Of a stretch of DNA of 45,245 bases, positions 15,598 to 44,797 are shown one piece after another. The notes below the pieces were generated by a model. The model worked only from the letters and a program-made list of their open reading frames with translations, was not told where the DNA came from and made no database searches. Source of the DNA: Campylobacteraceae bacterium (lineage in GTDB: Bacteria; Campylobacterota; Campylobacteria; Campylobacterales; Campylobacteraceae); NCBI GenBank assembly GCA_031284315.1, contig JAITAB010000019.1, positions 1-45,245 on the forward strand. The letters are read 5' to 3'. A program made the translations under genes and the position numbers. How positions within the stretch are numbered: the first letter of the stretch is position 1; every line of letters starts with the position of its first letter.

Positions 15598-17907
15598 TTA
15601 TTTAATCTCTTTTACGCTAAATTCAACCTTTTCGCTCTGCCCGCTCTCGTCAATGACCACAAGTTGATAAATGTCCTCCTGCGTAAATTTGCGGTTCAAA
15701 AAATCCCCCTCGCTGTTTTGCGCTATAAGTTCGCCGTTCAAAAACCACCATCTTTTGCCTCTGCCGCCCTGCGAAGTGATTTTGGGGATTAATTCCCGCT
15801 CGGATATTGTAAAAATCGTGTCGTTTTTCACATTTTTGATAATGAGCGTTCTTGTCGGGTCATTGTCTTCAAGCGGCGGGCATGTTTGGCTTTTTTTTGG
15901 CAGTCTTTGCGATACATGTTCGCTTTTTGGAAGCCATGGAGTAAGCGAAACAGGCCAGAGGGCAAGCTTTTTTTGCATGGCGTTTTTGCAGTAATACGCA
16001 CTCATTTCGCCCTTATCGTCCGTGTAGTATGTAAACCAGCCGCTTGACAAATCCTGCTTGGAAGAAAAAAGAGTCGGCGGCGTGAAATCGTTAAATATCC
16101 ACGCTCTTTTTTCCACGCGGCAGTTTGGGTCGTTTTTCGCAAGCGGCTGTCCGCTCGGCCAGCATATATTTTTTACGCTTACAGACGAGGGTTTTTCATC
16201 CAAGTAGTCATTTAGCAAAAATGAGGTTGTCTCTCTTTGCTTTAAGTAATTGTTTATTTGATACAAAAACGGAACCGCTGACGCCGCGCCGAATTGCTCC
16301 GCAACAGGAGCGCCGTCCGGGCGTCCTGTCCAAACGCCGATGATATATTTTGAACTTATGCCAACAGCCCATGCGTCTCTCATGCCGTAACTCGTGCCTG
16401 TTTTATACGCAAACGACAAAAATCCGCGCCGATAAAACGCGGGGTCTGCTTCGCCCGAGAGCATGCGCCTTGTTATCCATGCCGCGCCCGCATCAATAAA
16501 ATCATACTCTATCAAAGGATCATCCGCAAGATATCTCAAAGCCGCGATTTTACCGCCTCTTGCATATGCGCTGTACGCGCTGACAAGTTTATCGAGACTG
16601 ATACCTGCGCCACCCAAAATGACGGCGAGATTTGGCTCTGCATAGGGCGGCAGTTTTAGATTTATATCTGCGCTTGAGAGTTTTGCCATAAATTTTTTGG
16701 GTCCGTAAACTTCCATCAATTGAACGGCAGGCAGATTTAAAGAGTCGCTCAAAGCATCTGACGCGCTCGCCGCGCCGGAAAATGCCATATTGAAATTTTC
16801 TGGAGTATAGCCTTGTATTCTTGGCGTATCCTGCAAAAGCGACTGCGAATGTATCAACCCCTCGTCTATCGCCAAAGCGTAAATAAAAGGCTTCAGCGTT
16901 GAACCCGGAGACCTCGCCGCGCTTACCATATCCACATGACCAAAGCGGCTTTCGTCATTAAAATCTATAGAACCGACATACGCTTTCACGGACATATCGG
17001 TATGATCCACCACAAGCATAGCCAAAGAGACGGCGGGGTGGAGGGCGGATTTCGCATTTAACGCCATCTCTTCAAGGCTTTGCTGCATGGAGGCGTCTAT
17101 ATTTGTTTTTATAACTCTTTCGTTTGTCATCTGAAGCGAACGCCTTGCAAAAATCGGCGCCAACTGCGGAGTAAAACGAGGCGGCAGATAGATATCCTCC
17201 TCTTTTGCCTCTTTTACCGTTTTTTCGTCCCATACGCCGAATTTCAGCAGTCTATCCAACACTTTATCGCGTGCCTTTTGCGCCTCTTTTGGATATCTAT
17301 CAGGTCTTAACTTGCTTGGAGACTGCGGTAAAGCCGTCATCAAAGCCGCTTCCGCATAAGTTAATTCCAGAGGCGTTTTGCCAAAATAACTCCAAGATGC
17401 CGCGCCGATGCCCTCTATCGTTCCGCCAAAAGGCGCACGGTTTAAATATATAGTCAAAATCTCATCTTTTGAGTAGCGCCATTCAAGCTGTGCGGCGCGC
17501 CACATCTGTTTGATTTTGCCGCTTATGCTCTTTTTGTGAGGTTCAAGTATCCTTGCCGTTTGCATGGTAAGAGTGCTTGCGCCCGATACCCTTTTGCCTT
17601 CAAATATATTTTGCGCCGCCGCGCGCGCTACGGAGAAGGGATTGATGCCAAAATGCCAGTAAAACCACCTGTCCTCATAAGCAAGCAAAGCTTCTAAATA
17701 AGCAGGCGACACATCTTTAATCTCCACAGGATAACGCCAAACGCCCTCTTCGTCCGCAAACCGCCAAAGCGGCGAATTATCGCTTGCGACTACTATCCTT
17801 GACATGCGCGCGTCATTCACGGGAAGCGGAAAAAGTTTGTCCAAAATAAACAGCGTACATGAAGCAAAGATAAGAAAAAAAAGAAAAAATTTTAAAATCT
17901 TTTTCAA
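15598..17907 (-). CDS. pbpC: Penicillin-binding protein 1C (bifunctional transglycosylase/transpeptidase)
   Basis: 769 aa. It has an N-terminal membrane anchor (KKILKFFLFFLIFASCTLFI), then a GT51 glycosyltransferase domain with the catalytic motif EDRWFYWHFG (Glu78). The transpeptidase domain follows, with SxxK at Ser336-Lys339 (SPGSTLKP), SxN at Ser389-Asn391 and KTG at 502-504. A ~170-residue C-terminal beta domain of the PBP1C type ends the protein. The start codon is TTG (17907-17905) with a weak ribosome site, chosen because it supplies the anchor helix. The alpha-2-macroglobulin gene lies 39 nt upstream on the same strand, the well-known pbpC/A2M pairing in which the inhibitor is thought to guard the periplasm while PBP1C repairs wall damage. 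Confidence 0.95.
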   Translation of the reverse strand: MKKILKFFLFFLIFASCTLFILDKLFPLPVNDARMSRIVVASDNSPLWRFADEEGVWRYPVEIKDVSPAYLEALLAYEDRWFYWHFGINPFSVARAAAQNIFEGKRVSGASTLTMQTARILEPHKKSISGKIKQMWRAAQLEWRYSKDEILTIYLNRAPFGGTIEGIGAASWSYFGKTPLELTYAEAALMTALPQSPSKLRPDRYPKEAQKARDKVLDRLLKFGVWDEKTVKEAKEEDIYLPPRFTPQLAPIFARRSLQMTNERVIKTNIDASMQQSLEEMALNAKSALHPAVSLAMLVVDHTDMSVKAYVGSIDFNDESRFGHVDMVSAARSPGSTLKPFIYALAIDEGLIHSQSLLQDTPRIQGYTPENFNMAFSGAASASDALSDSLNLPAVQLMEVYGPKKFMAKLSSADINLKLPPYAEPNLAVILGGAGISLDKLVSAYSAYARGGKIAALRYLADDPLIEYDFIDAGAAWITRRMLSGEADPAFYRRGFLSFAYKTGTSYGMRDAWAVGISSKYIIGVWTGRPDGAPVAEQFGAASAVPFLYQINNYLKQRETTSFLLNDYLDEKPSSVSVKNICWPSGQPLAKNDPNCRVEKRAWIFNDFTPPTLFSSKQDLSSGWFTYYTDDKGEMSAYYCKNAMQKKLALWPVSLTPWLPKSEHVSQRLPKKSQTCPPLEDNDPTRTLIIKNVKNDTIFTISERELIPKITSQGGRGKRWWFLNGELIAQNSEGDFLNRKFTQEDIYQLVVIDESGQSEKVEFSVKEIK

Positions 17908-17946: not shown

Positions 17947-20900
17947 TTATTTGACTGTGAATTTGGATACGCTTTTGCCTGTGGCGAAAATTTCAGGAGA
18001 GTACATGGACTCCACATGCGGCGGCGGAACCGTATAAACTCCCGGACTTACCGCGCGCGCAAGATATACAAGCACGGCGGGACTATACCGCTCAATATCA
18101 ATAGCGGCTATGTATCTGTCGTCTCTAAACTCTTGATGAATAATGGAAGTTCGCGCAAGCGCAAGCGATAACTCTTTGTTTGCTTTCATTGCATCGCTGT
18201 CGGCTAAACTTATCGCGCTGTGTCCTAAATTTTGATTTTCAAGCTCTAAACCAGCCGGCAGCAAATCCACCACAAGCGCATCGGAAATTCTCTCAAATTC
18301 AGTAGTTACCTTCAAAGCCACGACTATCAAATCTCCGCTTTTAAGCTCGTCTAAAACCGTCTCTTTGCCATCAAGCGTGTAATATGTCCTTGAAATGGTG
18401 ATATTGTTTGAAACGGGCGCGGGAGCCGATGTAGGATAGCCTGTGATATCTACTGAAGCAAACAGTATCGTTTCATCGGAGTTTTTGACGCTTTGCACGG
18501 ATTTAAGCGCGGCGGCGTCAAACGCTCTCATGAAGGGCTTGCCATCAAGCTTGATATTTTCCTTTTTGCCGTTCGCGTCAATAACTGCCTGCCAAAACGG
18601 CTCTTTTGCATTTACAAAATGTCTGCCCGCTAAAAATATAGCGTTTTGCTCCTGCGTGGAAAAATATCCTTTTGTTTTGATTTTTTCGGAGAGTGAAAGG
18701 GCGATTTTTGCTCTCTCGTCAGGCAATAAGTTATGTTCATACAAAAGCGACAATATCAAAGCCATATCTCTTACTTCGCTTCCATAGTCGCCGTACCAGT
18801 AATAGCCATTGCGCTTCGCTGAAAAGAGCAGCGCTTTTTTTGTAAGATCGTCCGCCCGCGAATTGTCGCCCGAGAGTTTTAACGCGAGAGCAAGCTGCAT
18901 GAGTGCAAGCGGGGATTGTTTATCGCTTGATGCGTCATAAAGGCGTCTTAAATTGCCGAGATTTGCCTTTTGTTCGCGCGCTAAAACAAAAGAGGCATAA
19001 CTTTTGACCGCGAAATTTGTATAATCCGCGCTATAAGTATAACCATAGTCAATATTCCCGCTATTGGCGTAGTATTGCAGTCTCTCTATCGCTCTGTTTA
19101 AAGCCTCCTGCGGCACATAAAAGCCCTGTTCTTTTGCCCTTAGCAAAAAGTCTGTTACATAAACGCCGGCCCAATGCGCCTCATGAGAGTTAGCATCCCA
19201 AAATCCGAAACCGCCGTTTGTTTTTTGCATGCCAAGAAGCCTCTCTATGCCTTTTTGCACATTCTCTTTTCGCTCTTCGTTGCTTGAAGTTTTGATTCCA
19301 AGCGCGGCAAGTTGTTCGGACGAAGCATAAATAGACGGATATATGCCGCTTGTAGTCTGCTCCACGCAGCCGTAAGGATAGGCAAACAGTTCCTTGACGG
19401 CTTGCGCTAAATTAAGCGGCGGGATAGAACTGATGCCAAGAGCCGCTTCTATGGTTCTTTCGTCAAGATTTTCATATCCTGCTTTAAATTCGGCGGCATT
19501 GAGAGTATCGTCTTTTTTCAACTCTTTGAAAAATTTAAAAACTCTCGCATTATAGGGCGGTCTTACTCCTATGACCCATTTTTTTTCTATCGTTTTTTGC
19601 GATTTGTCCTCAAAATCCGCTTTGACCGTTACCGTACCGCTTCCAAAGCCGCTTTGCGCGGATATTGGTATATAAATAACCTTTTTTTGGTTATTTAGTA
19701 TCGTTATTTGCTCCTCTTTAAAGCCGTCTAAATAACCTTGCGCAGTTACGGTTACTTTCAGTTTTTGTTCAAGTCCTGAGAGATTGTTTATATCAAGAGC
19801 AAGCGTGCTTTTATCGCCGCCCGCTAAAAATCTCGGGTGGTTTAACTCCACTACAAGAGGCGCGGCGACAATAGCTTTTTGCTCTGCGCTGCCGTAATCC
19901 TCGTCTCCCCAAATCTGCGCCATGAAGCGGAGTTCGCCGTTAAAATCGGGGATTTCAAACCAAACTTCCGCTTCCCCTTTTTCATTTATCGTTACAGGTT
20001 TGGACTGCATGGCGACCAGCAAAAATTCGCTTAAAGGTTTTTTGCCGCCCGTGAGTTTTGCAAGAGCCGTATCTCCGCCGTATTTCAATGACGCGCTTTT
20101 CGCGCCGCCTTCTATCAGATTGCCGTACACATCGTATATATCTATATTCCATTCCCGTTTGGCGAAAAATGTCTCAAAAGGGTTCGGCGTTTGAAATTCT
20201 GTGATATTTAAAATGCCGCTGTCCACCGCCGATACGATGGCGGTAAGCTTTTTGCCTTTTTGAATTTGGTTTGTTTTAAGCGATACTTTGATTTTCTGTT
20301 TTGGCTCTATTTTGTCAGGAACGCCGAGTTTCAAATCAATTTTTCTATCGTCTCTAAACAGCGGCAAATGCAGTATGCCCATAGCTCTTTTGGGCGTTAG
20401 ATGCAGGTTTTTATTGCCCTGTTTGATAATGGTCGCGCCGATGTAAATGTCATGGCTTGCCCACTCTTTGTTTACGGGTATTTGGACAACATTCGCGTTT
20501 TTACTGACATTGATATTCTGCTGCCACAAAACGCCCTCGTTTGTCTCTACGATAATGTAGCCGCTTCCGCCCTCAGGGGATTCAACGGTAACTTTCGCAA
20601 CATCGCCCGCCTTGTATGAGGGCTTGTCAAGTTTCAGCGTTATCTGCTCGGGTTTTGCCGTGTTTGCGCCGCTTTGCTGCCAACTGTATCCTGCGTAAAA
20701 GCGAACCGCGCTTACTGCGTTTGTATTTAAGTCCGTAACCTCAATGACATAAGAGCCCCAATCCACGTCAAATCCCACTATCGCGCTTTTGCCCTGCGCT
20801 ATGGATATATCCCTGTTTTCCATGTTGATATGTTTTACATTGTAGTCATACCCCCAGCCGCCGCCATCGTTATAATACCAGTAGTAATCGTACCGCTCCT

Positions 20901-22887
20901 TTATCAAAGAAACGCGGAGGTTGTTTTTTGCAAGTTTTTTGCCCTCGGTATTTGTAAATATTATTTCAAACTCTGCATGCGAATCTTCGTCTATGGAAAA
21001 TTCATTTTCATATCGTCTGTTTTTGTAGTTGTATATCTTTTTTACGCCAAAATTCGGTTTAATTGCGGGAAGTTCCATACTCGGGAAAACAGCCTGCGTG
21101 AAAGTCCTTGTTACGGGGCGTCCGCCTGATTCCATGAGGCTTGCTTCAAAGACTATATTAATCGGCGAATTGATGCTATCCCAAGAGTTTTGCGCAATTA
21201 CGCGCGCTTTTCCCTCCTCGTTAAGTTCGGTATCTACATATCTTATATATTTGTCCAAACCGCCCTCTCTTAAAGAGCCGAAATAAAATCCGTTTAGAGA
21301 TTTGAGCGGATTTCTCAGCGGTCGTATTTTCAAATCGCCTATAAGCCTGTTGCCTCCGGCCGGCGCGCCGTAAAGATATTTGCCGTATATGTCAAAAACC
21401 GCATCGCTTGTTTTGGGCAGTATTTCCGCGCTTTTGTTTACTTCAAGAGCCATTTTTTCAGGCAGAAAGTCTTCCACTTTAAAAGCGTAAAAACGGTAAT
21501 TTCCATCTCCTAAGTCAAATCTAAACTTCCACTCTCCCGTTGGCGCGTTTTGCGGCAGGTCGTATGTATATTGATAAAATCCGTCCTTGCCCTGCCATGT
21601 GAATGTTTTTGCTATTTTATTGTCGGCTTGCAAAATATCCGCTTTTATCGGCTGTTCTGATATGCGCTTGCCGTCATAATCTCTCAATACGGCATTTACA
21701 AACACTTTCTCCCCAGGTCGGTACAAATCGCGCGGACCAAATGTAAAAAGCGTTTTATCAAAATCCTTAGCTCCTGCAATATTAAAATCCGCCAAATCCA
21801 AAGCGCCCCTGTTCAGATAAACAAAGCTCGTTTTCCCGCCCTTTTGCGCGAGCAAAACCTCAGCTTTGCCAAGCGGCGCATTTAGATAGCCTTTCGCATC
21901 TGTTTTTAAATCGGCGGTTGTCTCGCCGTGCGCGTTTAAAAACCTGATATTTACATCCGACATGGGCGCGCCGCTTAGATTCTGCGTGAAAATATCATAA
22001 GAATTTCTGTTTTTATGAACGATAACGCCGATATCGGTAAATGTAAAAACAGTTATCGGAATATCATAAGAGTAGTATTTGCCCGCTTCTCTCATGACGG
22101 CTATATAAATGCCGTTTTCTTTTAATTCTTTTATATTTTTAACAGGCAAAGTTACCGTTTCGCGCGCGTTTTTTTTGGCATTTAGCGTAAATCTTCCCGA
22201 ATATACTGGTTTTATATTACTCTCGCGCAAAAAATTATCCATAGTATAAGCGCTGATAGAAGTCCTTTTAAAAAACCTTTCCAAAGTCTGCGGCAGGGAT
22301 TGGGCTTCTACGCGGTAAAAATCCACGTCAACTTCTTTGACATTCAAAGTCGTAACCGCAAGCCCTCTCGTAAAATCCAAAGGCAGCAGAGACGATGAGG
22401 AAGCAAAGCCTACGACAGGCTGTAAATCTTTCGTGGTAATCTCCACAGAATATCTGCCTGAGGGTTTTAACTCTTTGCCCGCTATGTTTTTGATTTTACT
22501 TTGCTGCTCTATATAAACAAGATATTTTGCGTTCGGGTCTAAATATTTGAAATATATCTCCTGTCTGTCTTTGGAAAGTTCCCATAAGCCGTCCACATTC
22601 TGCGAAGAGGTTTCCATCGTTCCGTCCGCGCGTTTTGATTGCTCTTGTTTTTGTATGGTAATGATTTTATTTAAATCCTGCCTTGCCGCAATCGGCGTTG
22701 AAAAAGTTATGGCGATTGCCGCCGCGCCCTCAACGGTCGTTTCCGAAGCGTCCACAATGTAAAAAGCCTTATCTTTAAATCGTTCAAGTTGAGCTTCTTT
22801 TGAAGCCGTATTTACATTTTGCGCAAAAAGCGATAAACTTACGCTTGCCGATAACATGAAGAGTTTTAATATACGGGAGAGGTTCAT
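17947..22887 (-). CDS. Bacterial alpha-2-macroglobulin family protein
   Basis: 1646 aa, the usual size for bacterial A2M (YfhM-like). These proteins trap proteases: cleavage of a bait region activates a Cys-Gln thioester that bonds the attacker. The thioester motif is intact (PYGCVEQTT, Cys1174), followed by the alpha-helical thioester domain (LLGMQKTNGGFGFWD, HWAGVYVTDFLLRA). Multiple MG beta-sandwich domains fill the first ~1100 residues, including DLYRPGEKVFVNAVLRD and LDKPSYKAGDVAKVTVESP. The signal peptide MNLSRILKLFMLSASVSLSL is followed by FAQN with no lipobox Cys, unlike the E. coli lipoprotein form, so this one is predicted to be soluble in the periplasm. AAGGAAA precedes the ATG. 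Confidence 0.95.
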   Translation of the reverse strand: MNLSRILKLFMLSASVSLSLFAQNVNTASKEAQLERFKDKAFYIVDASETTVEGAAAIAITFSTPIAARQDLNKIITIQKQEQSKRADGTMETSSQNVDGLWELSKDRQEIYFKYLDPNAKYLVYIEQQSKIKNIAGKELKPSGRYSVEITTKDLQPVVGFASSSSLLPLDFTRGLAVTTLNVKEVDVDFYRVEAQSLPQTLERFFKRTSISAYTMDNFLRESNIKPVYSGRFTLNAKKNARETVTLPVKNIKELKENGIYIAVMREAGKYYSYDIPITVFTFTDIGVIVHKNRNSYDIFTQNLSGAPMSDVNIRFLNAHGETTADLKTDAKGYLNAPLGKAEVLLAQKGGKTSFVYLNRGALDLADFNIAGAKDFDKTLFTFGPRDLYRPGEKVFVNAVLRDYDGKRISEQPIKADILQADNKIAKTFTWQGKDGFYQYTYDLPQNAPTGEWKFRFDLGDGNYRFYAFKVEDFLPEKMALEVNKSAEILPKTSDAVFDIYGKYLYGAPAGGNRLIGDLKIRPLRNPLKSLNGFYFGSLREGGLDKYIRYVDTELNEEGKARVIAQNSWDSINSPINIVFEASLMESGGRPVTRTFTQAVFPSMELPAIKPNFGVKKIYNYKNRRYENEFSIDEDSHAEFEIIFTNTEGKKLAKNNLRVSLIKERYDYYWYYNDGGGWGYDYNVKHINMENRDISIAQGKSAIVGFDVDWGSYVIEVTDLNTNAVSAVRFYAGYSWQQSGANTAKPEQITLKLDKPSYKAGDVAKVTVESPEGGSGYIIVETNEGVLWQQNINVSKNANVVQIPVNKEWASHDIYIGATIIKQGNKNLHLTPKRAMGILHLPLFRDDRKIDLKLGVPDKIEPKQKIKVSLKTNQIQKGKKLTAIVSAVDSGILNITEFQTPNPFETFFAKREWNIDIYDVYGNLIEGGAKSASLKYGGDTALAKLTGGKKPLSEFLLVAMQSKPVTINEKGEAEVWFEIPDFNGELRFMAQIWGDEDYGSAEQKAIVAAPLVVELNHPRFLAGGDKSTLALDINNLSGLEQKLKVTVTAQGYLDGFKEEQITILNNQKKVIYIPISAQSGFGSGTVTVKADFEDKSQKTIEKKWVIGVRPPYNARVFKFFKELKKDDTLNAAEFKAGYENLDERTIEAALGISSIPPLNLAQAVKELFAYPYGCVEQTTSGIYPSIYASSEQLAALGIKTSSNEERKENVQKGIERLLGMQKTNGGFGFWDANSHEAHWAGVYVTDFLLRAKEQGFYVPQEALNRAIERLQYYANSGNIDYGYTYSADYTNFAVKSYASFVLAREQKANLGNLRRLYDASSDKQSPLALMQLALALKLSGDNSRADDLTKKALLFSAKRNGYYWYGDYGSEVRDMALILSLLYEHNLLPDERAKIALSLSEKIKTKGYFSTQEQNAIFLAGRHFVNAKEPFWQAVIDANGKKENIKLDGKPFMRAFDAAALKSVQSVKNSDETILFASVDITGYPTSAPAPVSNNITISRTYYTLDGKETVLDELKSGDLIVVALKVTTEFERISDALVVDLLPAGLELENQNLGHSAISLADSDAMKANKELSLALARTSIIHQEFRDDRYIAAIDIERYSPAVLVYLARAVSPGVYTVPPPHVESMYSPEIFATGKSVSKFTVK

Positions 22888-29664: not shown

Positions 29665-31602
29665 GTGGATTATGAACTTTTAAAAAAACAGGCAAATACG
29701 ATTCGGTTTTTAGCCGCCGATATGGTGCAAAAAGCAAACAGCGGACACCCGGGCGCTCCCATGGGGCTTGCGGATATTGTAACGGTTTTGTCTTATCATC
29801 TGCGCCACAATCCCTCAAATTCCAAATGGCTGAACCGCGACAGGATAGTTTTCAGCGGCGGTCATGCGTCTGCGCTTGTGTATTCATTTTTGCATTTAAG
29901 CGGCTATGATATCTCTTTGGAAGATTTGAAAAATTTCCGCCAGCTTGGCAGCAAAACGCCCGGACACCCCGAATACGGCGAAGTAGAAGGCGTTGAAGTT
30001 ACGACAGGACCATTGGGACAGGGAGTAGCGAATGCCGCAGGATTTGCCGCCGCGGCGAAATATGCCTCAAACATACTGAACACGGACGAAATTAAAGTCA
30101 TAGACCACAAAGTTTACTGTCTCTGCGGAGATGGTGATTTGGAAGAGGGCATAAGTTATGAAGCGTGTTCGTTTGCGGGGCATTTGGGGCTTGATAATCT
30201 CGTTTTGATTTACGATTCCAACAATATCACCATAGAAGGCAGTACCTCTCTTGCGTTCGGCGAAGATATCAAATCCCGATTTGAAGCGCAGGGCTGGGAA
30301 GTTTCAAAAATAAACGGGCATGATTTTGATGAAATAGAAGAAGTTTTGACGCGCTCTTATAAACAGACAAAACCATACCTCATCATTGCAAATACGCTCA
30401 TCGCAAAAGGCGCTTGCAAAATGGAAGGAAGCCACGAAGCGCATGGCGCGCCTTTGGGCGAAGAGGAGATAGAAAACGCAAAAATAAAAGCGGGATTTAA
30501 TCCAAAAGAGAAATTTTTTATAGCCGAAGATGTTAAAGAGGAGTTTTTAAAGGCAAAAATAAACGGCGCAGAGGCTGAAAAAACATGGAAAGAGAAAACG
30601 GCTCTATTGAAAAATGAGCAAAAAGAGGTATTGCACAAGCTTTTAAATCCTGATTTTAACTCCATAAAATGGCCGCAATTTGAAGCTGGAAGCGCGGTCG
30701 CTACAAGAGACAGCAATGGAAAAATCATCAATGAAATCGCAAAAGCTCTTATAGGATTTTTGGGCGGAAGCGCGGATTTGTCGCCTTCAAACAAAAGCGA
30801 ATTAAACGGCATGGGAAGTTTTCCCGCCGGGCGAAATATCCATTTTGGCATCAGAGAACATGCGATGGCGGCGATTTGCAACGCTATATCGCTATATGGA
30901 CTGTTTTTGCCTTACAACGCGACCTTTTTTATATTCAGCGACTATTTAAAACCTTCCGCAAGACTTGCCGCGCTCATGAAACTAAAAACATTTTTTATCT
31001 GGACGCATGACAGCATAGGCGTTGGCGAAGACGGACCCACGCATCAGCCCATAGAACAATTATCGCAGTTTCGCGCTCTGCCAAATTTTTATGTCTGGCG
31101 TCCCGCTGACGCTAATGAAAATGTGGAAGCTTGGAAATCCGCTTTGAATATGAACGCTCCAAGCGCATTTGTTCTCTCTCGCCAAAAATTAACGGTACTT
31201 GACCAAGCGGGCGATTTTGGCGGCGCAAAAAACGGCGGATACCTCTTGAAAAAAGCCAAAAATCCCAAAATAACGCTTATTGCGAGCGGAAGCGAAGTCG
31301 GACTTTGCGTAAAAGCCGCGCAGAAATTAAAAGATGAAAGTATAGAAGCAAATGTCGTAAGCGTGCCGTGTTTTGACTTATTTTTGGAACAAGAAAACGC
31401 CTATGTGCAAACTGTGATTGATAAAAATACGAAAATTTTGGCTGTGGAGGCTGGCGCAGGCGATGTTTGGTATCGTTTCGCGGACGATGTTATATGCATG
31501 AAAAGTTTCGGAGCAAGCGCACCGAGCGAAAAACTTTTTGACAAATTCGGCTTTAGTGTGGAAAATGTAATCGCAAAAGCAAAAAAACTGCTGGAGAGAT
31601 AG
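29665..31602 (+). CDS. tkt: Transketolase
   Basis: 645 aa. Transketolase moves two-carbon units with thiamine diphosphate in the non-oxidative pentose phosphate or Calvin pathway. NSGHPGAPMG near the start, TGPLGQGVANAAG, CGDGDLEEGISYEA (thiamine/Mg2+ motif), LIYDSNNITIEG, GIREHAMAAICNAISLYG and DSIGVGEDGPTHQP are all intact. The start codon is GTG (29665-29667), preceded by AAAGGA at 29653-29658. Its partner transaldolase is encoded near 38.1 kb. Confidence 0.97.
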   Translation: MDYELLKKQANTIRFLAADMVQKANSGHPGAPMGLADIVTVLSYHLRHNPSNSKWLNRDRIVFSGGHASALVYSFLHLSGYDISLEDLKNFRQLGSKTPGHPEYGEVEGVEVTTGPLGQGVANAAGFAAAAKYASNILNTDEIKVIDHKVYCLCGDGDLEEGISYEACSFAGHLGLDNLVLIYDSNNITIEGSTSLAFGEDIKSRFEAQGWEVSKINGHDFDEIEEVLTRSYKQTKPYLIIANTLIAKGACKMEGSHEAHGAPLGEEEIENAKIKAGFNPKEKFFIAEDVKEEFLKAKINGAEAEKTWKEKTALLKNEQKEVLHKLLNPDFNSIKWPQFEAGSAVATRDSNGKIINEIAKALIGFLGGSADLSPSNKSELNGMGSFPAGRNIHFGIREHAMAAICNAISLYGLFLPYNATFFIFSDYLKPSARLAALMKLKTFFIWTHDSIGVGEDGPTHQPIEQLSQFRALPNFYVWRPADANENVEAWKSALNMNAPSAFVLSRQKLTVLDQAGDFGGAKNGGYLLKKAKNPKITLIASGSEVGLCVKAAQKLKDESIEANVVSVPCFDLFLEQENAYVQTVIDKNTKILAVEAGAGDVWYRFADDVICMKSFGASAPSEKLFDKFGFSVENVIAKAKKLLER

Positions 31603-36524: not shown

Positions 36525-37427
36525 TTATTCTATTATCTCGTCCAAAAGTTTAAAGTTATTTGCGCCCATGAGGTGAAGTTTGGGGTGGAAATTTTTTAAC
36601 TCGTTAAATAACTCTTTTGAAAGCTTAACGCCGATTTTTAACTCTTCCGCTTCGCTGATTTTTTTGGCGTTTGAGAGCTGCTGCATCAAAAACTGCGGTA
36701 CATGAATGCCGCTTACATGCGAATTTAAAAATTGCGCAGTTTTTAATCTTGTCGCAGGGAAAAATCCAAAAACCAACTCCGTATCCGCCTTAACTTCTTC
36801 TTTTGCTTCGTCAAAGATATTTTTCAGCCATTTTGCGTTTTCAAGCCCATATACAGGCTGGGTTATAATCGCCGACGGATTAAATCGAAGCTTTGTCATT
36901 ATCTTTTTTTGCAGCGTTTTGGGATTGTTTGCGCGCGAATTGCAAACGGCAAACGAAAGTATCGGCTTCAAGGGCGCGCTAAACTCTTTGCCCGCGTAAT
37001 CAATGCCCGCGTTAAAGCATTTGACGATTTCCAAAAGAAGCGTGGAATTTGCCTCAAAAACTCCCTTCACATTCGGCTGATTGCCGCTTGCGGCAGGATC
37101 TCCCGTGAGAGCCAAAACAGCCCTTACGCCAAGTTCGTTTGCGCCCATAACGGTTGATTGCAGGGCGATTTTATTTTTATCGCGCATGGTTATGGTAGCG
37201 ATGGCGGGCTTTGAAAAATACTCCTGTAATTTAAAAGCGGTAATTACGGAGTCGGATTTTAGCCTTGCCAAAGGGCTGTCTGTTACGACAAACGCGTCTA
37301 TTTTCTCTTTTAAGCGGGACGCATTTAATTTTTCAAATATAGCCGCATTGCCGCCTCCATGAGAGGGCGTAATCTCCAAAGAGATAAATTTTTTATTTTG
37401 AATTTTGTTTTTTAGCTGTAAATACAT
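36525..37427 (-). CDS. Methylenetetrahydrofolate reductase family protein
   Basis: 300 aa TIM-barrel flavoprotein of the MetF family, which makes 5-methyl-tetrahydrofolate for methionine synthesis. SLEITPSHGGG holds the catalytic-type glutamate; FVVTDSPLARLKSDS, ALTGDPAAS and PSAIITQPVY are typical of the subtype with an ITPP-like start. This subtype also occurs fused to or beside methyltransferases. It is monocistronic, divergent from serB. On its strand a good extended -10 (TGATATAAT, plus-strand 37460-37468) lies in the ~50-nt gap. A second, canonical metF elsewhere cannot be excluded, so no symbol is given. Confidence 0.8.
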   Translation of the reverse strand: MYLQLKNKIQNKKFISLEITPSHGGGNAAIFEKLNASRLKEKIDAFVVTDSPLARLKSDSVITAFKLQEYFSKPAIATITMRDKNKIALQSTVMGANELGVRAVLALTGDPAASGNQPNVKGVFEANSTLLLEIVKCFNAGIDYAGKEFSAPLKPILSFAVCNSRANNPKTLQKKIMTKLRFNPSAIITQPVYGLENAKWLKNIFDEAKEEVKADTELVFGFFPATRLKTAQFLNSHVSGIHVPQFLMQQLSNAKKISEAEELKIGVKLSKELFNELKNFHPKLHLMGANNFKLLDEIIE

Positions 37428-37478: not shown

Positions 37479-38120
37479 ATGAAAATTATGGAATACAAAA
37501 TGAAACTTGCGGCTTTTGATTTTGACTCTACGCTGATGGACGGAGAGACTATCAATTTTTTAGCGGACGCTTACGGAGTGGGCGAAGAGGTAGCAAAACT
37601 TACAGCCGAAGCCATGAGCGGCAAGATAGATTTTTTTGAAGCGTTAAATAAAAGGGTTGCTCTTTTAAAAGGTATGAGTGAGAAAAAAGTTATTAATATA
37701 TGTGAAAATCTGCCTTACATGAAGGGCGCAAAAGAGCTGATAAAAGAGCTTCGCACGCGCGGCATTACTGTTGTGGTTTTTAGCGGCGGATTTAGATATG
37801 CTACAAATTTTGCGAAAAAAGTTTTGGGATTTGACGCTGATTTTGCGAATGTTTTACATGCGAAGGACAATGTTCTTACGGGACTTGTCGGCGGCGATAT
37901 GATGTTTGGTTTTTCCAAGGGCGATATGCTTTTGAGAATACAGTCTCTTTTGAAAATTGGCTGCGAAGAAACCATATCGGTAGGCGATGGAGCAAATGAC
38001 GCTTCCATGTTTGAGCTTTCAAAGGTGAAAGTTGCGTTTTGCGCCAAAGAGGTTTTGAAAAGCAAAGCTAATGTCATCATTGACAGCAAAGACTTGACGA
38101 AAGTTTTAGAATATATTTGA
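37479..38120 (+). CDS. serB: Phosphoserine phosphatase
   Basis: 213 aa from the first ATG; ATGs at 37488 and 37500 are in frame, and family homology begins at the third (MKLAAFDFD), so the true protein may be 206 aa. No ribosome site clearly decides. SerB removes phosphate from phosphoserine in serine synthesis. HAD motif I is FDFDSTLMDGE, motif II VVFSGGFRYA, motif III lysine in GFSKGDML, and motif IV VGDGANDASMF. The helical cap AEAMSGKIDFFEALNKRVAL is typical. serB next to tal matches the order recalled from C. jejuni. Confidence 0.94.
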   Translation: MKIMEYKMKLAAFDFDSTLMDGETINFLADAYGVGEEVAKLTAEAMSGKIDFFEALNKRVALLKGMSEKKVINICENLPYMKGAKELIKELRTRGITVVVFSGGFRYATNFAKKVLGFDADFANVLHAKDNVLTGLVGGDMMFGFSKGDMLLRIQSLLKIGCEETISVGDGANDASMFELSKVKVAFCAKEVLKSKANVIIDSKDLTKVLEYI

Positions 38121-38130
38121 AGGAAGTAAA

Positions 38131-40740
38131 ATGGCAATCGGTTCAAGCAATTTTTCTATTTGGTGCGACTTTATAGAGAGAGAATTTTTATCAAGAGAGC
38201 TTCCTGCGCTTGTTGATTCTGGTGTGGTAAGCGGCGTTACGAGCAACCCCGTTATCTTTAAAAACGCTATTTTAAACTCTAAAGCGTATGCCGAAGATAA
38301 GAAAAAAAGTATAGATATGCTTCCCAAGGAGAGATACGAGTTTTTAGCGATAAATGATGTCAAAAATGTCGCTAAACTGTTAGCTTCTACGCATAAAGCA
38401 AATGATCAAGATGGATTTGTGAGCATAGAGGTAAATCCTCTGTTTGCAGATGATTTTGAAAAAATGACTGACGAGGCTAAGCGGCTTTATAAAAAGATAG
38501 GCATGCCAAACATCATGATAAAAATTCCCGCAACAGAAGCTGGATATGAGACGATAAAAGAGTTAATTATAGAGGGCATCAATGTAAACGCCACTCTTGT
38601 TTTTTCGCCGCAGCAGGCAGGCAAGTGTCTTCAAGCGATAGAAAACGGATTTTACATATTTCAACGCAGAAATCCGAAAAAAGCCTTTCCGCAGGTTGTT
38701 ATCAGCGTTTTTGTAAGCCGTTTTGATAGAAAATTAGATGAAAAGTTTGAGTCTTTGGGGCTTGAAAAGATGAAATTTGGCGTCATGAACGCATCATATA
38801 TATATCAATTGGTAAGAGAACAGAAAATCTCCAACGTAAGATGTCTTTTTGCAAGCACAGGCGTAAGCGACCCGACTTTTAATAAGTCGTATTATATTAC
38901 AAGACTGCTCTATAAAAATGCTATCAATACAGCTCCTTTGGCGTCTATAGAAAGTTTCATGGAAGTGCTTGATACGGAAGAGAAAGTCTGTCCCGATAAA
39001 GAGAGTATTAAAAAATATTTTGAAGAAGTAGAGGCAAAAGGGGTAATACTTAAAGAAATATACGCTTCGCTTCTTGAAGAAGGGCTTGAACAGTTCAGTC
39101 AGGCGCACAGAGAATTGATGGAGAGTTTGAAAGTAACAAATGAAGAGATAGAGGAGATAAGAATGGCTGAAAAAGCCGAGCAAGAACGCATAGAGCGCGA
39201 AGCAAGAGAGCAGGAAGAAGCTTTAAGAAGAGCTGAGGAAGAGAGAAAAGCGGCCAAAAGAGACGAAGAAGAGAGAAAAGCGGTAGAGGAAGCCAGAAAA
39301 AAAACAGAGCAGGAAGCCGCTGAAAAAGCCGAGCGTGAAAGACTTGCAAAAGAGGCGCATGAGAAAGCTTTGGAGGATTTGAAAAGACAGACGATTACCG
39401 CAAAACCTGCAGAAGATATAAAACCCGCCGCCGTAAAAAAAGATGTAGAGGTAAATGTAGATGTTAAACTGAACAAGCCTCTTTCAAGAGCGGAACAGAG
39501 AAGATTAGCCGTGGCAGCGGCGCAGGAAAGCCGCTACAAAAGCCCTGTTATGAAAGTAACGGAAGGGTATCTGAAAGAACTTATTTCATATGGAGGAAGC
39601 GATTTGCATATCAAGTCGGATGCCGCTGTCAAAGGGCGCGTAAACGGCGAAATTGTAACGGTGAGCAACAATATCTTTAAAAAAGAGGAGTTGGATATCC
39701 TTGCACGCGAGCTTTTGCAGGATAGATACGACGATTTTACAAAGAAAAAAAATATAGATTTTACCTATAAACTTGACGAAGATTATCGGTTTCGCGTTAA
39801 TATATTCCGCCAAACAGACGGCATTTCATTAGTATTTCGCGTAATTCCATTGGATATTCCATCTGTCGAAGAGCTTGATTTGCCGCTTGCCATTAAAAAT
39901 TTTGCGACCAAAAGAAGAGGGCTTGTGCTGGTAACAGGACCTACGGGAAGCGGTAAAAGCACCACGCTCGCGGCTATCATAAATCTTATAAATCAAACGA
40001 GCCAAAGGCATATTATCACGATTGAAGATCCGATAGAGTTTATCTATAAAGACGAGCAGAGCATTATCAATCAACGATCAGTAGGGCAAGATGCAGTGAG
40101 TTTTTCAGACGCACTGGTGGCTTCCTTGAGAGAAGACCCAGATGTTATCATGGTTGGCGAAATGAGAGACGTTGAAACTATCAGAACGGCAATTCGCGCG
40201 GCGGAAACAGGCCACCTTGTGCTTTCTACTTTACATACGCTTGACGCCAAAGAAACGGTTGGGCGCATTATCAGTATGTTTAACGGCAATGAGCAGGTTC
40301 AGATACGCCACTCACTCGCTTCCGTACTTCAAGCGGTTATTTCACAAAGGCTTGTGAGGCGCAAGGACGACAAGGGAAGAGTTGCGGCTATTGAGATTTT
40401 GGTAAAAAACGAACGCATAGAAACGATGATAAAAGACGGCAGAGAGGGCGAGATAAAAGATGCTATTGAAGATGACAGCGATGTTTACGGTTCGCAAAGT
40501 TTCAATCAAGCGCTGCTTGATCTTTACATCAAAGACCTTATAAGCTACAACGAAGCTCTTTATACGGCGACTTCGGCGGCGGATTTGAAGATTTTACTTG
40601 ATAACCATGATATAGAAAAACATACGGGCATTAAGCGCGGCGGCACAAGAAAACGCTTGGAATATGATGATGACGAAGCTGAAAGCGAGAATATAAGCGT
40701 AGATATGGACGATGACGATATTTTGTCGTTAAAGCGGTAA
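38131..40740 (+). CDS. Transaldolase fused in frame to a PilT-type ATPase
   Basis: 869 aa in one open frame. Residues 1-334 are transaldolase: FSIWCDFIEREFLSRELPAL at the start, GVTSNPVIFKNAI, the Schiff-base Lys131 in MIKIPATEAG, and FASTGVSDPTF. Residues ~335-430 are a charged Glu/Ala/Arg/Lys coiled coil. From about 474 a PilT retraction ATPase follows: SYGGSDLHIKSD, Walker A GPTGSGKST (603-611), ITIEDPIEF, Walker B-like MVGEMRD, His box TGHLVLSTLHT (693-703), then an acidic tail. Sugar metabolism joined to pilus retraction has no obvious logic. One A less in the AAA of codon 334 (39130-39132) would give TTG AAG TAA and end a normal transaldolase. An ATG at 39163 (residue 345) with GAGGAG six bases upstream could start a separate 525-aa PilT protein. 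It may therefore be a true recent fusion, or two genes joined by a one-base error. Both catalytic parts look intact. Confidence 0.85.
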   Translation: MAIGSSNFSIWCDFIEREFLSRELPALVDSGVVSGVTSNPVIFKNAILNSKAYAEDKKKSIDMLPKERYEFLAINDVKNVAKLLASTHKANDQDGFVSIEVNPLFADDFEKMTDEAKRLYKKIGMPNIMIKIPATEAGYETIKELIIEGINVNATLVFSPQQAGKCLQAIENGFYIFQRRNPKKAFPQVVISVFVSRFDRKLDEKFESLGLEKMKFGVMNASYIYQLVREQKISNVRCLFASTGVSDPTFNKSYYITRLLYKNAINTAPLASIESFMEVLDTEEKVCPDKESIKKYFEEVEAKGVILKEIYASLLEEGLEQFSQAHRELMESLKVTNEEIEEIRMAEKAEQERIEREAREQEEALRRAEEERKAAKRDEEERKAVEEARKKTEQEAAEKAERERLAKEAHEKALEDLKRQTITAKPAEDIKPAAVKKDVEVNVDVKLNKPLSRAEQRRLAVAAAQESRYKSPVMKVTEGYLKELISYGGSDLHIKSDAAVKGRVNGEIVTVSNNIFKKEELDILARELLQDRYDDFTKKKNIDFTYKLDEDYRFRVNIFRQTDGISLVFRVIPLDIPSVEELDLPLAIKNFATKRRGLVLVTGPTGSGKSTTLAAIINLINQTSQRHIITIEDPIEFIYKDEQSIINQRSVGQDAVSFSDALVASLREDPDVIMVGEMRDVETIRTAIRAAETGHLVLSTLHTLDAKETVGRIISMFNGNEQVQIRHSLASVLQAVISQRLVRRKDDKGRVAAIEILVKNERIETMIKDGREGEIKDAIEDDSDVYGSQSFNQALLDLYIKDLISYNEALYTATSAADLKILLDNHDIEKHTGIKRGGTRKRLEYDDDEAESENISVDMDDDDILSLKR
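39151..39165 (+). promoter_or_regulatory. pilT: Internal Shine-Dalgarno and ATG for a separate PilT protein
   Basis: GAGGAG (39151-39156), then six bases, then ATG (39163-39165) in frame with the PilT part. It would yield a 525-aa protein beginning MAEKAEQERIE, with the coiled coil and the full ATPase. Confidence 0.6.
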
Positions 40741-40802: not shown

Positions 40803-41339
40803 ATGTTAGAGGGCATACTAAGAGAGAGTATCGACGGCAAGTCATTAAAAACGCTTAGACGAGATGGTTATCTGATTGCCAATATTTATGCAAAAGGCTT
40901 TGAAAATATTCATGCGGCGTTTAAAGAGAATGAATTTATTAAGGCTGTACGCAAAAAAGAGGGTCTTGTTTTCCCCGTTAAAATAGGCGAAAGCGTATAT
41001 AATGTGGTCATACAGGAGTATCAAAGAGAGCCTGTTACTAACAGACTTTTACATGTTGATTTGAAAGTAGCGCTTCAAGGCGTTGTTACGAAATACATGG
41101 CGCCCGTAGTCATAAAAGGCACGGCAAAAGGCATTAAAGACAAGGGCGTTTTGGTTTTGTCAAAAAGAAGGCTTGGCGTAAAATGCGCCGCAGAAAATCT
41201 TCCGAACGCTTTTGAGCTTGATGTAAGCGAGCTTGGAGTCGGCGATTCGCTGCTTGTAAGAGATATCAAACCAAGCGCAGGCGTAAAAATAGTAGAGGCG
41301 GATAGAGTCGCTGTCGTAGGCGTTATCAAGGCGCAATAA
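40803..41339 (+). CDS. rplY: 50S ribosomal protein L25 (CTC/TL5 type)
   Basis: 178 aa, the long form with a 5S rRNA-binding N-terminal domain and a C-terminal beta domain. [20 protein letters not shown] is the start pattern (Arg-rich, replacing the usual RxxxGKGxxRxLRxxGxIPA), [19 protein letters not shown] is the 5S-contact block, and [12 protein letters not shown] is the C-terminal domain motif. AAAAGGACGATA precedes the ATG. pth follows 6 nt later, a classical pairing. Confidence 0.96.
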
Positions 41340-43053: not shown

Positions 43054-43111
43054 TTAAACTCTACCGTTTAATTTTTTAAAATTGTTCTATGCATTCATTA
43101 AAGGATTGAAC
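43054..43111 (+). repeat. Duplicated leader, copy 1, with TTAAAC-N6-GTTTAA dyad
   Basis: The perfect dyad TTAAAC (43054-43059) / GTTTAA (43066-43071) around TCTACC is followed by TTTTTTAAAATTG, then AAGGATTGAAC and the ATG. It aligns with 44908-44961 with few differences and a 4-bp length change. Either it is an attenuator-like RNA hairpin with a T-run, or the dyad is an operator just ahead of a TAAAAT -10 at 43077-43082. Confidence 0.75.
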
Positions 43112-43642
43112 ATGAGAGCATTCGGAAAAGTTATAAGCTGGTATTTTGCCGTTTTATTTTTGGCATTGTTTACGGTAAGTACGGCGGCAGAGTCTGCGTC
43201 CAAAAACGAGAAAGCGCCGATGGATCAGCTCATAGAGGCTATTTTGAAAACAGGCGGAACTTATACTGTTTTGCTGGACGATACTGCGCAAGAGGAGTGG
43301 GCAAATCTAATGATGTATCTTGAAGGGCAAGACCCGCGAACCATAGCGCAGATTTCCTTGCCCATAAATGTGCAATTTTACGGACTTGCGCAACAAGGCA
43401 AAACCACGCCCATGTTTTCAATAACGCCGAAAAAATCGGGCATACTAAGCGTTACAGTGGATACTAAAGGCGATTTTACGCCCGATATCAAATGCGGGGA
43501 AAAAGCGGTGCAGGAAAATGTCGGTTTTAGCGTTTATCGCGTAAATTTTGCGGTTACGGCAGGCAAAACTTACCATATAACTATCGGCGATTCGCTTAAT
43601 GAGAGCGGTTTATACAGCGTAACCGCCGTATTGAAGCCATAA
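43112..43642 (+). CDS. Secreted protein of unknown function, small beta domain
   Basis: 176 aa from the ATG at 43112, which has AAGGA (43101-43105) six bases before. A signal peptide (MRAFGKVISWYFAVLFLALF, cleaved near STAAES) precedes a mature part of about 140 residues. Its second half (MFSITPKKSGILSVTVDTKG, VNFAVTAGKTYHITIGD, GLYSVTAVLKP) looks like a beta-sandwich of the PPC (pre-peptidase C-terminal) kind, but this is only a resemblance. No catalytic motif is visible. The next gene starts 9 nt later with a similar signal peptide (MRTFKQFISWRLAVL), so the two look like a duplicated export cassette with different cargo. Function unknown. Confidence 0.72.
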   Translation: MRAFGKVISWYFAVLFLALFTVSTAAESASKNEKAPMDQLIEAILKTGGTYTVLLDDTAQEEWANLMMYLEGQDPRTIAQISLPINVQFYGLAQQGKTTPMFSITPKKSGILSVTVDTKGDFTPDIKCGEKAVQENVGFSVYRVNFAVTAGKTYHITIGDSLNESGLYSVTAVLKP

Positions 43643-43651
43643 GTATCAAAC

Positions 43652-44797
43652 ATGAGAACATTCAAACAATTCATAAGTTGGCGGCTTGCCGTCTTGTCCG
43701 CAATGGCGATGTTTATGGCAAGTTCTGCTTTTGCTACGCCTATAAAGCCTATCATGGCTCATGTAGAAAGTATTGCTCCTGTCAATATAGGAGAGAAGAC
43801 TTTTATACCTGTGCAGATTGATAAGCTTGACTTTAAACTAAAATCTGCAAAGATAAGTTTTAAGATTAATACATGGTTGCCTCCTTTGGAAGAAGGTATC
43901 AGCGCAGACTCTGTAAAGACAGAAGAGACAGTAGTTGATGTCAGCAAACTGACATCTTTTCCATATACCGTTTATGTGCCTGTAACGGTTACAGGGGAGG
44001 GCAGATTTGACTTTAAAGGCGCGTTACATATAGAAGCGCTTGAGGGCAAAATGATATTTGACAAAGAGTATTTTGATTATCCTTTACGCTTTAGCATATT
44101 TGCGTTTGAAGGCAGAGTATTTTTTGCAAAGTATAGCGATTCAGCAGCAGCAGCGGCAGCAGATGAGAATCTCAAAAAAACAAACTCCGAATATAATAAA
44201 CTCTTAAACAAAAAAGAGAATACAGGCAAAGGGATCCTAAAACAGAGTTTCTCAAAAGAGGAAGAGGAGAAGCTGCATAATATTTTGATAGACGCCAAAC
44301 AACAGCTATTAAGAAAATACTATGAACGCTATCCCATCAAGCCATCTCCAACATCAAGACTTCTTAGAGAAGCCCCTTTAAGCAAACCTCAAAAAGACGA
44401 CACTGTCGTCTTAGAGGTTAATTGGGCTATTAATGACAGTTATACTTCCTTTTTACCCTTACACGGAGCGGAAATAACAATATATGCAAACGAAAACAAT
44501 AACTCTATGACTCAAATATCCAAAGGCGTTTTAAATAACGGCAAATACGGTTTCATATCTCCAAGAGACAATCTCAGCTTTACCGCCAAAATAAGCGCCA
44601 AATACGGAAACGACTTTGAAGTAAAAAATGCCACAGGAAGCGTTATAGAGATAGGCTTTAAAGATATTACGAGCTTTAATATAAAAACAGTTGAAAACGA
44701 CAATGATTTATTAGAAATAGTAGGCGTAGAAGCTAACGCATGGTCTGTATTTCAAGCGTTCATAAAATTACATAAATTAACTTTTAAAAATTCATAA
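43652..44797 (+). CDS. Secreted protein of unknown function, two beta domains
   Basis: 381 aa. The signal peptide (MRTFKQFISWRLAVLSAMAM, cleaved near AFA-TP) resembles the previous gene's. A beta-rich region (about 35-160) contains YTVYVPVTVTGEGRFDFKG. A low-complexity helical linker (about 165-240) includes AAAAAA encoded by CAG/CGG repeats. A second beta domain (about 250-345) with VVLEVNWAINDSYTSFLPLH and GAEITIY resembles carboxypeptidase-regulatory or transthyretin-like folds. I do not recognise the whole. No ribosome site is obvious in the 9-nt gap, so translation may be coupled. Base use is more AT-rich toward the end, hinting at an accessory locus. Confidence 0.7.
   Translation: MRTFKQFISWRLAVLSAMAMFMASSAFATPIKPIMAHVESIAPVNIGEKTFIPVQIDKLDFKLKSAKISFKINTWLPPLEEGISADSVKTEETVVDVSKLTSFPYTVYVPVTVTGEGRFDFKGALHIEALEGKMIFDKEYFDYPLRFSIFAFEGRVFFAKYSDSAAAAAADENLKKTNSEYNKLLNKKENTGKGILKQSFSKEEEEKLHNILIDAKQQLLRKYYERYPIKPSPTSRLLREAPLSKPQKDDTVVLEVNWAINDSYTSFLPLHGAEITIYANENNNSMTQISKGVLNNGKYGFISPRDNLSFTAKISAKYGNDFEVKNATGSVIEIGFKDITSFNIKTVENDNDLLEIVGVEANAWSVFQAFIKLHKLTFKNS

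Follow-up and report, generated by a model that had tools for sequence, protein, structure and literature searches.

The window, that is, the whole analysed stretch of 45,245 nucleotides, contains an open frame of 869 codons, flanked by serB on one side and by the ribosomal protein L25 gene on the other. Translation of the window revealed zero internal stops in this frame, which encodes a transaldolase domain, a linker, a PilT/PilU-family ATPase domain, and an acidic tail (Table 1). These are two complete enzyme domains in one genuine continuous frame, just as the initial annotation had observed; the profiles NF003026 (transaldolase) and TIGR01420 (PilT-type ATPase) are matched nearly end to end.

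Table 1. Features of the tal–pilT fusion gene and its direct neighbours (positions refer to the window).
Feature	Position	Strand	Evidence or remark
serB	37479..38120	+	TIGR00338, 231 bits; next gene upstream, at a distance of 10 nt
tal–pilT fusion gene, 869 aa	38131..40740	+	single open frame
Transaldolase domain, aa 6–333	38146..39129	+	NF003026, 394 bits; TAL_FSA, 2e-71
AAA codon (K334), site of the suspected extra base	39130..39132	+	differs between relatives, frame stays open
Linker, aa 335–466	39133..39528	+	charged; E/K/R/A/Q/D make up about two thirds
Possible internal start for a free PilT, AGGAG and ATG (aa 345)	39152..39165	+	AGGAG 6 nt before ATG
PilT/PilU-family ATPase domain, aa 480–817	39568..40581	+	TIGR01420, 421 bits
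Acidic C-terminal tail, aa 818–869, ending DDDDILSLKR	40582..40737	+	sequence
Ribosomal protein L25 (rplY/ctc)	40803..41339	+	NF004129, 242 bits; downstream neighbour of the fusion gene

Several other features of the window were recorded. A bacterial alpha-2-macroglobulin (17947–22887, minus strand) is encoded beside a penicillin-binding protein that combines transglycosylase, transpeptidase, and BiPBP_C domains (15598–17907, minus strand); the pairing of these two proteins is of a known kind. The region 36525–37427 (minus strand) matched a bifunctional family over its methylenetetrahydrofolate reductase half, with a score under the family cut-off. Downstream of an lptG-like gene, the open frames 43082–43642 and 43652–44797 (plus strand) remained without a match in Pfam and NCBIfam under the thresholds applied. 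With regard to the habitat, a termite-gut origin of the genus is a guess from isolate names, which the literature did not confirm.

The N-terminal domain is a full-length transaldolase match, covering positions 3–323 of the 323 in NF003026 (curated cut-off 344 bits), and Pfam TAL_FSA agrees with this assignment. Residues D13, N39, E100, K131, N153, T155, S192, and R197 are invariant in the 11 aligned fusions. We take K131 to be the Schiff-base lysine and the remaining residues to form part of the transaldolase active site; the presence of Lys131 pointed out in the initial annotation is borne out. A single copy of tal was found in the genome.

The ATPase domain spans positions 5–342 of the 343 in TIGR01420 (curated cut-off 319 bits), in agreement with Pfam T2SSE. 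Its Walker A (GPTGSGKST), Asp box (ITIEDPIEF), Walker B (DPDVIMVGEMRD), and His box (AETGHLVLSTLHT) motifs are intact and, single exchanges aside, are kept in every fused form. The tail ends with LKR or LKK in all fused proteins (14 of 14). The AIRNLIRE motif is missing from the fused ATPase, where ERIETMIKDG stands in its place; this motif is present in PilT and absent from PilU (PMC6762196). A second PilT of 358 aa, encoded by a separate gene on contig C55, matches TIGR01420 with 448 bits and reads AIANLIRED. In comparison with the solved PilT 6ojx, the C55 protein scored 377 bits versus 265 bits for the fused domain. The latter shares 230–295 bits with solved PilT and PilU chains (best PilT, 295; best PilU, 237); these scores do not favour a descent of the fused ATPase from PilU. 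By these sequence comparisons, the C55 protein is the more canonical PilT copy, while the fused ATPase is a second PilT paralogue. The initial annotation had described a complete PilT retraction ATPase, which holds for the completeness of the family domain but not for its identity with PilT proper. The PilU of Vibrio cholerae depends on the presence of PilT for its action (PMC6762196); on this analogy, the fused ATPase may have an accessory part in retraction.

Comparison of tal and pilT gene structure in the closest genomes, as proposed in the initial annotation, revealed fusion and not separate genes wherever the locus was complete. Namely, the frame is unbroken in 13 of 13 such genomes of the genus, including that of the window (G011 was left out of this count, its locus being cut by contig ends), and also in G023, a genome of a neighbouring genus in the same family. 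Ten named relatives, all of them metagenome-assembled genomes, display the same frame with 67–94% identity over the whole protein; they belong to the same-genus genome set and are counted once, within the 13. The fused forms constitute one clade in the tree of both domains (support 100/100), with one change of state. As judged from this distribution, the fusion is conserved throughout this uncultured group of the Campylobacter family and is of single origin. No further fused frame was present among the tal frames listed for a family sample of 150 and an order sample of 299 genomes. Long tal frames in G331 and G369 were considered as candidates for repeated fusion and rejected, as a stop separates tal and pilT in both.

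The codon for K334 deserves separate attention. The loss of one A at 39130–39132 would end the transaldolase at 334 aa with ESLK, as the initial annotation had pointed out and as we could reproduce. The corresponding codon is AAA, AAG, AGA, or AGG in the relatives and GAG in G023. Since relatives carry other bases at this codon and yet stay open, the ESLK ending is a coincidence of the window sequence. Programmed frameshifting at AAAGTAA was rejected as well, because this site is not conserved among relatives.

Within the fusion, conservation is lowest in the linker. Measured up to the GSDLH motif, its length varies from 63 to 154 aa across the fused forms, with the frame retained, while the remaining two frames contain many stops. 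Open linkers of such length are rare in shuffled bases (P ≤ 0.0025 per genome). The dN/dS values of the linker are mostly 0.09–0.23 in close pairs and 0.39 in a more distant pair, and exceed those of both domains in close pairs (0.03–0.08); these are simple Nei–Gojobori estimates, and dS is near saturation in distant pairs. Judged from these ratios and from a frame that is kept across lengths, the linker evolves as protein, under purifying selection. Strongly charged, helix-forming linkers are confined to nine genomes, those closest to the window. The linkers of G004 and G012 are of an intermediate type, and those of G009, G013, and G023 are shorter, differ in composition, and are not strongly charged. 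The AlphaFold model (11 sequences) was of low confidence (mean pLDDT 54, pTM 0.39), so that only a helix at aa 337–412 was taken from it, as a weak hint. The long helical arm suggested in the initial annotation is not, then, a general feature of these proteins, and its interpretation as a defined lever was rejected because both the length and the composition of the linker vary widely.

A continuous frame may still yield mostly two proteins, through internal initiation or cleavage of the linker, and the fusion would then be of little consequence. The low conservation of the linker fits this reading, as does the ATG at aa 345, which is preceded by AGGAG, a sequence resembling a ribosome-binding site, and might give rise to a separate PilT in G000, G007, and G003. 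These are the only genomes with ATG in this position; it is replaced by AAG in G006, and the start is also missing in G008, G005, and others, so that a conserved internal PilT start was rejected. The linker of G013 contains no ATG, GTG, or TTG, save one TTG located 4 aa before the PilT core; with no usable linker start codon, a free PilT is unlikely in this genome. In addition, a stop or frameshift reappeared in none of the 14 fused genomes. A mostly two-protein outcome is, in our judgement, unlikely.

Unfused relatives point to the route by which the fusion may have arisen. In 50 of the 52 genomes of the order for which both positions were listed, tal lies directly upstream of the same PilT paralogue. 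The initial annotation knew of no established link between pentose phosphate metabolism and pilus retraction; this view needs to be amended at the level of gene order, where the fusion appears as an old operon turned into one gene. Detailed reading of 22 unfused junctions showed that tal and pilT share a frame at 14 of them, nine of which have 9 nt from the tal stop to the pilT ATG. One departure from this arrangement was seen at G239:C1:509573-511674, where the PilT paralogue adjoins another PilT-family gene and not tal. As tal and pilT are often in frame and few bases apart, the loss of a stop would be enough to fuse them. We infer from the gene arrangement that the stop codon of tal was lost in an old operon of tal followed by the PilT paralogue, which joined the frames. 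This would have happened once, in the ancestor of the window's genus (g1) and genus g11, and the spacer between tal and pilT would then have grown into the linker.

The neighbourhood of the two genes also invites a regulatory reading, in which the state of the transaldolase or its binding of sugar phosphate alters retraction, or the pilus base gives the enzyme its location. The persistence of tal and this pilT as neighbours across the order speaks for such a device, as does the retention of the fusion since the ancestor of two genera. However, operon inertia accounts for the neighbourhood, and a linker of so variable length and composition, without the charged helix in G009, G013, and G023, speaks against a defined lever arm; we consider this reading very unlikely. 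The bolder version, in which the transaldolase would serve the retraction ATPase as an integral metabolic sensor or anchor, coupling pentose phosphate status to retraction, and the order-wide adjacency would reflect the same link between separate proteins, is equally improbable. The chance that an extra A at 39130–39132, introduced by sequencing or assembly error, joins two separate genes is negligible: dropping it does leave a transaldolase of normal length, with the AGGAG-preceded ATG 30 nt downstream of the suspect codon, but the frame is equally open in 12 further members of the genus and in G023, with different bases at this codon, and the linker evolves as protein.

We favour, as the likely reading, a bifunctional protein that stems from a single fusion, with both domains active and with a role of the PilT side in retraction of an MSHA-type pilus. 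A pilus-like machine is present in the genome, as indicated by an MshL-type secretin, a PilC/GspF-like protein, and an MshE/GspE-like ATPase of the extension type that carries an MshEN domain, all on contig C66, and by pilin-like genes on contig C60. Contig C69 resembles a type II secretion system. With regard to the pentose phosphate pathway, transketolase is encoded inside the window (29683–30627 matched) and ribulose-phosphate epimerase on contig C22. The N-terminal transaldolase, of which the genome revealed no second copy, would serve the non-oxidative part of this pathway. The C-terminal ATPase, as a hexamer, would help to retract the MSHA-type pilus beside the separate canonical PilT, while the linker would hold the domains apart and so allow both to work. 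By reference to the two protein families, as many as six transaldolases would be borne by such a hexamer, outside the ATPase. Since the fusion is genus-wide and no further transaldolase turned up in the genome, the two activities could not easily be expressed apart.

The combination of a transaldolase with a pilus motor ATPase is a new architecture of known parts. No earlier description of a tal–PilT fusion was found in open-licence literature, which is weak evidence of novelty. The bifunctional transaldolase/phosphoglucose isomerase (NF007080) is likewise a fusion with an N-terminal transaldolase, but its partner is another sugar-phosphate enzyme and not a pilus motor ATPase; accordingly, NF007080 matches aa 6–382 of the fusion only weakly (229 bits, far under the cut-off of 712). 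With the PilT/PilU family (TIGR01420), represented by PilU and by PilT of Geobacter, Aquifex, and Thermus, the fused protein shares the core with its Walker A, Asp box, Walker B, and His box motifs. It differs by its N-terminal transaldolase, its acidic tail, and the lack of the PilT trait AIRNLIRE. The closest counterpart is the tal–pilT operon of other Campylobacterales, which has the same two families in the same order and on the same strand, often in the same frame, separated by a stop and about 9 nt. It encodes two proteins, however, and the PilT has an N-terminal extension of about 30 aa where the fusion has its linker. The fusion represents a clear case of operon neighbours becoming one gene, probably through stop codon loss, and the unfused operon found across the order offers a natural comparison for asking whether the separate proteins already interact.
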